This document shows positions 54,281 to 58,306 of a DNA stretch of 64,000 nucleotides, piece by piece. Origin of the DNA: Trichothermofontia sichuanensis B231 (GTDB taxonomy: Bacteria > Cyanobacteriota > Cyanobacteriia > B231); NCBI RefSeq assembly GCF_026240635.1, contig NZ_CP110848.1:436501-500500 (forward strand), in the 5' to 3' direction. How positions within the stretch are numbered: the stretch's first letter is position 1; every line of letters starts with the position of its first letter. The notes beneath the pieces are model-generated. The model had not been told where the DNA came from. It ran no database searches and saw only the letters and a list, made by a program, of their open reading frames with translations. The position numbers and the translations under genes were made by a program.

Positions 54281-55807
54281 TCAATCCTTATGCAATCGCC
54301 ATACCTGGATCGTCTGATCGAAACTGCTGCTCAACAGGGTTTTGCCATCGGGGCTGAAGGCGAGGGCGGTCACAACATCTGTATGTCCCGTGAGGGTGTT
54401 CACTGCTTGACCGGTTTTCAGATGCCATAGCTTGACCGTATAGTCCTCACTGCCACTGGCGAGCAGCGTATGTTTGGGGCTAAAGGCCAGGGTGCGGATG
54501 GGCTGGCGATGACCGTGCAGGGTTTGTTGGGGCTGGGGCGAAGGGACAACGACATTGGACCAGAGATGAATTTGACCGGTGCGATCGCCTGTCGCAAGGT
54601 AGTACCCGTCGGCACTAGCTACCAAGCTAGCGATCGGTTGATCTTGAGCGATGGGTAAGTGAAGCGGTTCGCTAGTCCGCCAGTGATAGATACCGATCAG
54701 GGCATCTTCCCCCCCGCTATAGGCCACCTGCTTATCAGGGCTGATGGCCACTGCCCCAACCGGTCCCTGGTGGCTTTTCGCCATGCGGATGCGCTTACCC
54801 GCACTTAAATTCCAGAAGCAGACCTTACCCTCCGCATCACCACTAATCAGGACTTTGCAATCGGGACTGATGGCCAGCGTCTGAATCGAGCTGTTGTGCC
54901 CCGTCAGGGTCCGAATCAAACTGCTATCCCGGACATACCACAGCTTAATCGTGCCGTCCTTTCCCGCACTCGCGAGGATTTGACCATCCGGACTAAAGGC
55001 CACGCTCCACACCTGATCGCTATGCCCCGCAAGGGTAAAGAAGGGCTGCCCCGTTTGCAGATTCCACAGATACACCTGGGTATCCCAACTGCCACTGGCC
55101 AGAATCTTGCCATTCGGACTCAGGGCGATCGCGGCAATGCGATCGCGGTGTCCCAGTAAGGTTTGCACATTCCGCCAAACGCTTGGGGGCGGTGCAGGCG
55201 GCGGGGGTGGGGAAGTAGGGGGCGAGGGGCGAGTCTGAGCTTGTGCAGAAGTGTCTGGGGGAGCCGGGTTGCGTGATCGTTGCGGCTTGCTCGCTTTAGA
55301 TTTGGCCCAGCCTGGGTTTGCCGTGGTTTTACCGGCTTGCTTAGCGAGTTGTTGGGCCTTCTGGAAATCTTCAGTTGCCCCTAATTCAAACCCCAACATC
55401 GAGTGAATAAATCCCCGAAAGGTATACGCTCTAGCATAGTTAGGATCAAGCCGAATCGCAGCGCTCAACGCCGCCAGCGCCTCTTCATAGCGCCCCGCCT
55501 TGACGAGAACGACACCCCGTTGGTACCAAGCCTCAGCCCCACCCGCCTGGGTTGTAACCTGGGTGTGGGTTGGGTCGGGGATGGTTGCTTCTGGTTCAGG
55601 CAGGTGATAGGTCCGTAGCTGTTCATAGGCTGCATTGATCACTTTCAGCTTGGCCTCGGCCTGCTTTTGCAGTACCGCATCATGGGGGAAGCGATCGGGG
55701 TGCCAAGTTCGGACGAGTCGGCGATAGGCGTGTTTGATTTCGCTTAGGGAGGCACCGGGCTGAAGCTCAAGGACGGCGTAGTAGGAACGGATTTGGGCAG
55801 TTAACAT
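54281..55807 (-). CDS. DnaJ-domain, TPR and WD40 fusion protein
   Basis: The 508-residue protein has an N-terminal J domain (YYAVLELQPGASLSEIKHAY, then RTWHPDRFPHD with the HPD motif), two TPR-like units (GVVLVKAGRYEEALAALSAA), a basic Pro-rich linker, and seven WD40 repeats from about residue 215 (for example TLLGHRDRIAAIALSPNGKI and LAFSPDGKTLLSSSFDQTI). The J domain would recruit a DnaK-type Hsp70 to clients held by the propeller. Start ATG is at 55807. It is not in an evident operon. Confidence 0.88.
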   Translation of the reverse strand: MLTAQIRSYYAVLELQPGASLSEIKHAYRRLVRTWHPDRFPHDAVLQKQAEAKLKVINAAYEQLRTYHLPEPEATIPDPTHTQVTTQAGGAEAWYQRGVVLVKAGRYEEALAALSAAIRLDPNYARAYTFRGFIHSMLGFELGATEDFQKAQQLAKQAGKTTANPGWAKSKASKPQRSRNPAPPDTSAQAQTRPSPPTSPPPPPAPPPSVWRNVQTLLGHRDRIAAIALSPNGKILASGSWDTQVYLWNLQTGQPFFTLAGHSDQVWSVAFSPDGQILASAGKDGTIKLWYVRDSSLIRTLTGHNSSIQTLAISPDCKVLISGDAEGKVCFWNLSAGKRIRMAKSHQGPVGAVAISPDKQVAYSGGEDALIGIYHWRTSEPLHLPIAQDQPIASLVASADGYYLATGDRTGQIHLWSNVVVPSPQPQQTLHGHRQPIRTLAFSPKHTLLASGSEDYTVKLWHLKTGQAVNTLTGHTDVVTALAFSPDGKTLLSSSFDQTIQVWRLHKD

Positions 55808-55964
55808 GGGCAACTGGCAGCGGTAGTTCAGAGGCAGAACATGCTTGTCTCAGCATTCCCTCTTGAGAGGTGTCACTACCAAGTGCCACTACCACCCGTT
55901 TCCAGGAACGCCTCTCTGCCAACGATTCCCTCGTGTATTTCTCGGGTGTTCAGCTGTCAGAGGC

Positions 55965-56295
55965 CGATCGCCTTAGTGATGCAGGGCGGTGCTGAAAGGC
56001 TTACGGTGTTTACCGTCTTAGCTGAGACAGGGGCTAGCCAGGCGGGAGGATACCCTGAGACGCGTTAGCCTGACCACAACTGTGTTCCCTGCCACGTCCT
56101 CATCCGCCCCCGGCTTATGCGTCGCAATGTCAGCGTCAGGTGTTAGACTGCCAGACTGAGTTTGCAAACGGCCTGCAATTTTCACCCTCAGACCATCTTG
56201 GGTTTTCTACACCCCTAAGACGGCGCCACAGCAAACTCGGTATACTGCCTCATCTTAGGCTCATGGAATGCCAACACGATATCCTCTTGGGGAAC
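55965..56295. repeat. 331-bp direct repeat, copy 1 (includes the xisI 3' end)
   Basis: This segment recurs at 57976-58306 with a single base difference (C at 56231 versus T at 58242). It holds the last 81 bases of xisI plus 250 bases downstream, including an imperfect GGCTAGCC/GGGTTAGCC-type dyad near 56030-56070. The repeats bound a 2011-bp unit that carries xisI, xisH and the NurA-like gene. Confidence 0.95.
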
Positions 56296-56562
56296 ACCTT
56301 CACCAATTAAATCAGTCGCAATACCGTTTTCAGTCCAATCTTCTTCGATCCAAAATTTACCATCCCGAATCCGAACATAGACTGTCATCCCAGTAATACG
56401 TTCCCCATTCTGCCAACCAAGGTTCATCCAGATATAGTGAGCTTTAGCCTGATCTACAATCAAAAACGTTTCAATATCTGGATTAGGGCGACGTTTAGTC
56501 AACTCCACGTATTCAGTCAGAATACGTTCAATTAACTTTTGATACTTTGTTAATTTATCCAT
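56215..56562 (-). CDS. xisI: XisI, fdxN element excision controlling factor
   Basis: The 115-residue protein starts MDKLTKYQKLIERILTEYVE and has DIETFLIVDQAKAHYIWMNL, GWQNGERITGMTVYVRIRDG, KFWIEEDWTENGIATDLIGE and VPQEDIVLAFHEPKMR, the XisI pattern (PF08869). With XisH it controls excision of the fdxN element in heterocyst formers, yet xisHI pairs are spread widely in genomes without that element, so the real role is unclear. It overlaps xisH by 13 bp. Its last 26 codons lie in the direct repeat. Confidence 0.92.
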   Translation of the reverse strand: MDKLTKYQKLIERILTEYVELTKRRPNPDIETFLIVDQAKAHYIWMNLGWQNGERITGMTVYVRIRDGKFWIEEDWTENGIATDLIGEGVPQEDIVLAFHEPKMRQYTEFAVAPS

Positions 56563-56966
56563 CGCAGAATTTCCTCCATTTCTATATCTACAACAATGAT
56601 GGGAAGTTGATGTTTATTGAGAATGAGTTGAGTCACATCCTGAGTAAAAAAAGTATTGTATGCAACTTTATTGACAGCAACATACAACTTACGATCTGGG
56701 GCTATTTCCTCTAAAAGATAGCGGTATATATCATACTGACCCAGAGCCTCTTTCAAATCTTGAATCTTAGACGCTCCAACAAAGCTTTTTACCTCCACAA
56801 CTAGCTTCTGCCCATTTCGTTCAACCGCGATCGGACGTTCAGCACCCAGATCAGCATATAGCACGGTTCTGCGGTATTGAATGATGTAAGGATCATCTGT
56901 AACCCACCAGCCATCCTTAATCAAGGCATTTTTTACAGCATTGTGGATAATATCTAGTTTGGGCAT
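56550..56966 (-). CDS. xisH: XisH, fdxN element excision controlling factor
   Basis: The 138-residue protein starts MPKLDIIHNAVKNALIKDGW and has LYADLGAERPIAVERNGQKL, VVEVKSFVGASKIQDLKEAL and YDIYRYLLEEIAPDRKLYVA, the XisH signature (PF08814). The D...E-x-K arrangement (AERP...VEVKSF) fits a PD-(D/E)XK nuclease fold. It is co-transcribed with xisI (overlap) and lies just after the NurA-like gene. Its AT content is higher than that of neighbouring housekeeping genes, in line with horizontal gain. Confidence 0.92.
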   Translation of the reverse strand: MPKLDIIHNAVKNALIKDGWWVTDDPYIIQYRRTVLYADLGAERPIAVERNGQKLVVEVKSFVGASKIQDLKEALGQYDIYRYLLEEIAPDRKLYVAVNKVAYNTFFTQDVTQLILNKHQLPIIVVDIEMEEILRWIN

Positions 56967-57034
56967 AAATTAAGTATATTTCAGGCTCTTATTGGTCAGG
57001 GTACAACTCCAGTTTAGTTTGCAAATTATCAAGT

Positions 57035-57628
57035 CTAGGAGTGACCCACCTCTCGTGCAATGAAATCCCCTGGCTTTGTTTCTGTTAAGTTGACAATTTC
57101 TAAGACAAGTGAAATTTCTAGTACTTCTTGGCAAAATCCCAAGAGCGTTGACAGATTTGTGCAAATTTGTTCCTTCTTGTACGAAAATATTTCTTCTGGC
57201 TTCTCGCCTAAAAAGTCGATTAATTGTTTTACTGGTTCTAAAGTTAAAAACTCATCATAAATAGCAACCAGATGTTCTTGATGGGTAATTAGAATATTTT
57301 GTGGATAATACGCTTTACCCAATATGACTGGATCATCCAGTGAGTTCATCCGGATCTGCTGACCTCTATGAAAGCAGATATAGCCCGCCGCATAGATAGC
57401 AATACATAAACCGTTGTAAAACTGCTCACTGTTATAGCTACCATCAATCGCGTAGAACCGGCGATCGCTATCATCGATTTGATCGAATGGAATAATCTCA
57501 AAGATTTGGGGAATCTCTATATTCTCCTTGTGCCCAACTACGGGAATACCATAATTTTTGTTGCTTCTTGCGTTGATATGTTTAGCAACTAACTCAATGG
57601 CGTTGTCAGGAATCTCTTTTCTGGGCAT
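57035..57628 (-). CDS. NurA-like nuclease-domain protein, probably frameshifted near its C-terminus
   Basis: The 197-residue frame starts MPRKEIPDNAIELVAKHINA and has FYAIDGSYNSEQFYNGLCIA near residue 58, resembling the DGS motif of NurA nucleases, then IYAAGYICFHRGQQ and LLGFCQEVLEISLVLEIV. It stops after FIAREVGHS, but a shift of one base in the GGTGGG run (about 57046-57051) continues as WVTPRLDNLQTKLELYPDQ to a stop at 56989-56991. The longer reading looks more natural, so a one-base insertion is suspected. NurA assignment rests on one motif. The gene lies upstream of xisH in the same direction. Confidence 0.6.
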   Translation of the reverse strand: MPRKEIPDNAIELVAKHINARSNKNYGIPVVGHKENIEIPQIFEIIPFDQIDDSDRRFYAIDGSYNSEQFYNGLCIAIYAAGYICFHRGQQIRMNSLDDPVILGKAYYPQNILITHQEHLVAIYDEFLTLEPVKQLIDFLGEKPEEIFSYKKEQICTNLSTLLGFCQEVLEISLVLEIVNLTETKPGDFIAREVGHS

Positions 57629-57975
57629 ACTTTGTTTTCAGCACTTTTATCTGCAGCAATTGTATCCAATAGCTTTGAATTGATGTACATCTAGAAGTCT
57701 TATATACCTCAGCTTTATCATATCATCCCTAACTATGTAACCCTACTAGCAGGTTTGAGATGTAACCTGATCACCCTGTTTTCATGCCTACTGTGCTCTG
57801 ACTATTAACGGGTATGCCTTGGGTTGTGACCTCACTATTGACCCAGCAGGCTAATGTCTGAATTCATCCGCCATTTTAGCCTATTCCCCAGCATCAGACA
57901 CCTTTGGTTGGTCGGTTGCAATGAGGTGTAATGATTTGTTATACCCCGATTGCCTCTTAACCATTGCCTCCTAGG
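57629..57975. other. AT-rich upstream region of the NurA-like/xisHI cassette
   Basis: No gene is seen. The region probably carries the minus-strand promoter of the cassette; TATGAT-like hexamers occur near 57715-57725 (minus strand), but no well-spaced -35 was found. Its base composition is closer to that of the cassette than to the flanking nadE. Confidence 0.5.
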
Positions 57976-58306
57976 CGATCGCCTTAGTGATGCAGGGCGG
58001 TGCTGAAAGGCTTACGGTGTTTACCGTCTTAGCTGAGACAGGGGCTAGCCAGGCGGGAGGATACCCTGAGACGCGTTAGCCTGACCACAACTGTGTTCCC
58101 TGCCACGTCCTCATCCGCCCCCGGCTTATGCGTCGCAATGTCAGCGTCAGGTGTTAGACTGCCAGACTGAGTTTGCAAACGGCCTGCAATTTTCACCCTC
58201 AGACCATCTTGGGTTTTCTACACCCCTAAGACGGCGCCACAGTAAACTCGGTATACTGCCTCATCTTAGGCTCATGGAATGCCAACACGATATCCTCTTG
58301 GGGAAC
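57976..58306. repeat. 331-bp direct repeat, copy 2
   Basis: It is identical to 55965-56295 except for one base. It ends 148 bp before the nadE start. Because it includes the tail of an xisI gene, it must derive from a second cassette or from the junction of an integrated circle. Confidence 0.95.
58226..58306 (-). pseudogene. 3' fragment of a second xisI
   Basis: These 81 bases on the minus strand encode the last 26 residues of XisI (VPQEDIVLAFHEPKMRQYTE and onward) with one substitution (Ala to Thr near the end) and its stop codon. The upstream part of the gene is missing: the sequence changes abruptly to unrelated DNA at 58307. Confidence 0.85.

Follow-up and report, generated by a model that had tools for sequence, protein, structure and literature searches.

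The XisH and XisI proteins were named after one excision event and are widespread in cyanobacteria, and to our knowledge they have no settled function. Several known kinds of system bear comparison with the locus described here. Integron gene cassettes require just the integrase IntI and attC sites for their movement. In HerA-nuclease defence and HerA–NurA end resection, a HerA ATPase adjoins a NurA nuclease, and DruA is known from Druantia. Type II toxin–antitoxin pairs are small overlapping gene pairs that include one enzyme, spread horizontally and show partner asymmetry, in that the enzyme gene is not kept without its partner. The fdxN element of Anabaena combines XisF with XisH and XisI, with XisH viewed as an endonuclease and XisI as a directionality factor (Hwang et al. 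2014, as cited in a passage of PMC4853749). XisHI is not named in a 2009 toxin–antitoxin survey (PMC2701414). In the literature searched, which mostly did not include subscription journals, no paper was found that joins NurA, HerA or DruA with xisHI or that puts xisHI in integron cassettes; integron cassettes, HerA-nuclease systems, Druantia and nuclease–inhibitor pairs are all known kinds, but no account of their being combined, or of xisHI as integron cargo, turned up there.

The locus lies in a 64,000-nucleotide stretch (the window) of the genome of Trichothermofontia sichuanensis B231, which alone represents its genus and family in the genome sample. A nurA-like gene, xisH and xisI are flanked there by two direct repeats, and the features are as follows, with G numbers denoting sampled genomes.

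55965–56295, minus strand: repeat copy 1, the 3'-terminal 81 bases of xisI and the 250 bp that follow
55971–56030, no strand assigned: remnant of an insertion-sequence end in copy 1, 75% identical over 60 bp to a transposon end in G047
56215–56562, minus strand: xisI, intact, 115 aa, 13-bp overlap with xisH (PF08869, 1.1e-42)
56550–56966, minus strand: xisH, intact, 138 aa, predicted PD-(D/E)XK nuclease (PF08814, 1.3e-53)
56992–57057, minus strand: what is left of druA, its last 22 codons (73% tblastn match to DruA residues 337–358)
57035–57628, minus strand: nurA', the 5' part of nurA, the first 193 of its 410 codons followed by 4 foreign ones, ORF of 197 aa, by homology to 410-aa NurA proteins
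57051–57058, minus strand: putative nurA/druA deletion junction with ACGA microhomology, where homology to G192 and G164 switches from nurA to druA
57849–57934, minus strand: degenerate attC, left cassette boundary, directly upstream of nurA' (covariance model R1, 25.6 bits, E 6.9e-5)
57976–58306, minus strand: repeat copy 2, same content as copy 1
57982–58041, no strand assigned: insertion-sequence terminal remnant in copy 2, identical in sequence to that in copy 1
58226–58306, minus strand: xisI stub in repeat copy 2, the final 27 codons including the stop (blastn match to the xisI 3' ends of relatives)

An earlier note on this DNA had proposed a functional cassette of three genes, the third being NurA-like. 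The homology was borne out, with residues 1–193 of nurA' sharing 85–88% identity with 410-aa homologues, but the gene is not intact. Its reading frame ends before the conserved RDGTL motif (the second acidic motif) and so lacks the full NurA domain, and the Pfam NurA model, which scores the intact 410-aa relatives, gives nothing for the window ORF. Because the relatives run to 410 aa and the window ORF stops short at residue 193, nurA' is a stump, and the idea of a functional three-gene cassette is not supported, since HerA and almost the whole of DruA are missing too.

What the cassette once held can be read from its relatives. The closest relatives of the window xisHI pair, in G192 (XisH 97%) and G164, form the end of an operon of the order NurA-HerA-DruA-XisH-XisI, where DruA is of the PF14236 family, and at intact NurA loci a HerA-type ATPase and then DruA follow NurA. 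The window matches G192 and G164 through nurA to about 57051 and resumes in druA from about 57058; the passage from one match to the other, with its ACGA overlap, argues that a single deletion made the present structure, joining nurA to the end of druA and taking out herA. The suggestion that NurA is linked to xisHI elsewhere also held, in G192, G164 and two strains with different deletion products: Anabaena azotica, where nurA 1–261 adjoins xisH, and Nostoc NMS4, with nurA 1–164, druA 85–353 and xisHI. Tails of druA stand ahead of xisH in G134 and G329. The five genes are nowhere intact together among the sampled loci: herA and druA carry insertions in G192, and in G164 xisH is broken and xisI carries a stop codon. 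NurA of the window type was found in 9 of 390 genomes, the host included, and this rare and scattered occurrence fits horizontal transfer. NurA-HerA-DruA also occurs without xisHI, in G017, G019 and at three further loci (L104–L106), and DruA is missing beside most xisHI pairs. The operon thus resembles HerA-nuclease systems in that HerA adjoins NurA, but differs in having DruA as a third gene; it shares DruA with Druantia, but here DruA stands beside NurA and HerA, and the window itself keeps just the NurA stump and the last 22 DruA codons. Neither XisH nor XisI nor the window-type NurA is modelled in PADLOC. At L105 (Deltaproteobacteria) and L106 (Chloroflexi), NurA-HerA occurs with a distant DruA, and an attC-like palindrome was seen by eye on one side of each locus.

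The boundaries of the cassette were recognized with covariance model R1, trained on 12 attC sites with the window excluded, which gave a single match in the 64-kb window, that upstream of nurA'. A common attC-shaped tail follows the xisI stop in G192, G164 and G134, and these tails are related to the attC sites of arrays that adjoin the G192 and G134 integron integrases. The G164 operon lies between two attC sites (L110 3267–3352 and 8276–8360). Among genomes outside the training set, attC lies about 20 bp or less from the xisI stop in G023 (83 bits), G168 (44.6), G157 (28.4), G329 (26.2) and G119 (21.8), and G168, G119 and G023 hold attC-bounded xisHI mini-cassettes. The model finds no match at most xisHI pairs. 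The attC helices covary: 8 pairs were changed on both sides and none of 500 shuffles scored as high, for pairs that were chosen by hand on the same alignment and among related sequences, which inflates such counts. Folding the attC tails one sequence at a time gave no information (z −1.4 to 0.9), leaving covariation as the useful test, and a regular-expression attC scan was unsuccessful.

An integron integrase (TIGR02249) scores above the cut-off in five genomes that carry the window xisHI clade (G192, G134, G329, G168 and G253), and attC arrays adjoin the integrases where the loci were examined. The host genome has 11 attC matches in total, three of them beside an intI gene that is a pseudogene, and therefore no active integrase was found in it. 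The upstream attC is the only boundary site left to the window cassette. This single degenerate site, the failure to find an active host integrase and the large size of the ancestral unit (five genes, about 5 kb) are unlike a typical integron gene cassette, whereas the attC at the window boundary, the sites on both sides in G164 and the integrases of related genomes are like one, and the locus is very probably a decayed integron gene cassette. The earlier suggestion of a mobile, nuclease-linked module is upheld.

Several observations were made beside these integrases. The host intI pseudogene and its three attC sites lie at L252 2013–4364 (G000:C1 2142000–2150000), and a PIN-domain gene among these sites is likely part of a toxin–antitoxin cassette. 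Beside the G134 integrase stands an array (L240 4834–10703) of some 14 near-identical units about 308 bp long, with attC sites; the units look too short for typical genes. G192 has internally deleted intI copies of which only the ends are kept (about residues 1–34 and 229–314), at C1 1004067–1004376, 1685491–1685825, 1964121–1964454, 3585572–3585906 and 4234133–4234467; of these, one precedes the five-gene operon by about 500 bp.

The repeats were confirmed by coordinates as first reported, at 331 bp with one mismatch (56232 C, 58243 T), 2011 bp apart and each with 81 bases of xisI, an identity that cannot be chance. It breaks off at 56296/58307. Beyond the xisI stop, homology of the region to relatives ends after 3 nt, and the 250 bp that follow the stop in each copy end in a remnant resembling a DDE-type insertion sequence, then CGATCG in both copies, then unrelated sequence. 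G058 has a similar insertion-sequence end, and its transposase has a DDE domain; an Rfam search over the region returned only a chance match far below the cut-off. A multicopy element was considered and rejected, as there are just two copies and no further one in the whole 4,436,989-bp (4.44-Mb) single-contig genome. Nor is variation in copy number, as had been supposed, evident in this host: there is one xisH, one xisI and one xisI stub. The stub in copy 2 holds the end of xisI with a single derived base, the relatives sharing the base of the intact xisI. The earlier view of a recent event, with the right copy as the stump of another cassette copy, is upheld. The repeat is known from one assembly, so an assembly error might be suspected, but this is very improbable: the one-base difference makes sense as a mutation in a dead copy, the copies have different outer flanks, and the single-contig genome is 99.76% complete.

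It had also been proposed that a 2011-bp circle, integrated by recombination, was the natural mobile unit. A repeat of 331 bp can recombine, a single-crossover integration would be expected to leave the end of xisI with its flank on both sides, and excision of a circle by recombination between the repeats is possible. As the origin of the repeats, however, the circle is distinctly doubtful, since it requires an earlier xisI stump at the site, the mobile unit of the relatives differs, with other boundaries set by attC, and the common CGATCG motif at which both repeats end also fits illegitimate duplication. The attC on both sides in G164, the attC in the window and the integrases in related genomes argue that the cassette moved as an attC gene cassette and not as the circle.

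Tandem duplication between the CGATCG motifs, followed by loss of most of one copy, would be the simplest account of the repeats, and tandem duplication with later deletion is their probable origin. The order of events that we infer begins with an ancestral cassette, NurA-HerA-DruA-XisH-XisI, as one operon between two attC sites. This cassette would have arrived horizontally, after which a deletion at a short microhomology may have brought nurA, cut at codon 193, up against the end of druA. The attC after xisI would then have been lost, and an insertion-sequence remnant beside CGATCG would have become the end of the region. The shortened unit was presumably duplicated in tandem, perhaps through the 6-bp CGATCG common to both repeat borders, and deletion of the nadE-side copy save the end of its xisI would have left the 331-bp repeats. 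A gene for a DnaJ-TPR-WD40 protein adjoins the cassette (window 54281–55813). In none of the nadE loci examined was a DnaJ-WD40 gene found within the adjoining 1.5 kb, and therefore no ancestral empty site was recovered.

The function of XisHI was approached through the company that the two genes keep, in 70 XisH-anchored and 70 XisI-anchored loci taken as the best-ranked matches of each list, a sample of relatives of the window genes rather than of all xisHI. Intact XisH genes stood beside an intact XisI in 65 of 67 cases, the two exceptions being technical (in one, about 1.9 kb is inserted between the genes and xisI is intact; the other is at a contig end). Of 68 intact XisI genes, 35 had an intact XisH beside them, 22 a broken one and 11 none (Fisher p 3e-10). 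The loci share ancestry, for which clustering at 70% identity is a partial correction, and after it the pairing was 18/19 for XisH-anchored vs 11/23 for XisI-anchored loci. By hand comparison of the match lists at the genome level, XisI occurs alone in 12 genomes and XisH alone in 4, and a Thiomargarita genome, with four xisH and seven xisI (PMC4853749), points in the same direction. This asymmetry agrees with a nuclease that does harm when its partner is missing. XisH had been taken for a PD-(D/E)XK nuclease, and the prediction stands, with D39, E58, K60, Q77 and Y81 (D, E-x-K, Q-xxx-Y) all kept in the window protein and invariant in 77 sequences; its structural model resembles restriction enzymes, such as PaqCI, with modest scores.

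The pairing asymmetry, the invariant nuclease residues, the restriction-enzyme-like model and the Thiomargarita counts incline us, by a modest degree, to see in XisH a nuclease that cuts DNA and in XisI its obligate inhibitor or immunity partner; XisH would be toxic and XisI would restrain it. Like type II toxin–antitoxin pairs, they are a small overlapping gene pair with a predicted enzyme, horizontal spread and partner asymmetry, but a PDB search found no known antitoxin or immunity protein that resembles XisI in fold. The one-sided pairing makes such a role directly testable. Alternatively, XisHI could be helpers of a site-specific recombinase, with XisI as directionality factor as for the fdxN element, and the cassette location would reflect a role in DNA excision. 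The families are the same as in fdxN, the cited roles of endonuclease and directionality factor agree, and the window xisHI clade does reside in integron cassettes. This reading is nevertheless unlikely, since IntI and attC suffice for cassette movement, a two-part helper would not predict that XisH is practically always with XisI while XisI is often solitary, no XisF was seen in the cassette, where the partners are NurA, HerA and DruA, and xisHI is present without xisF in Beggiatoa (PMC4853749).

A decayed cassette, duplication and deletion, and a nuclease–inhibitor pair together form what we hold, with reasonable confidence, to be the best explanation of the locus. The five-gene cassette ties XisH and XisI to HerA, NurA and DruA, and NurA-HerA-DruA would most likely be an anti-invader complex of a HerA translocase and a NurA nuclease, with DruA as in Druantia. 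More tentatively, all five genes may constitute an undescribed integron-borne cyanobacterial anti-invader system that the XisHI nuclease–inhibitor pair stabilises or arms, in which case a solitary XisI could be protective against it. XisH was not found in phage records, and plasmid records gave one weak xisI match only. Among 11 loci with solitary XisI, no shared alternative partner was found; at L159 and L154, a solitary XisI adjoins genes resembling PIN and RelE-type toxins.
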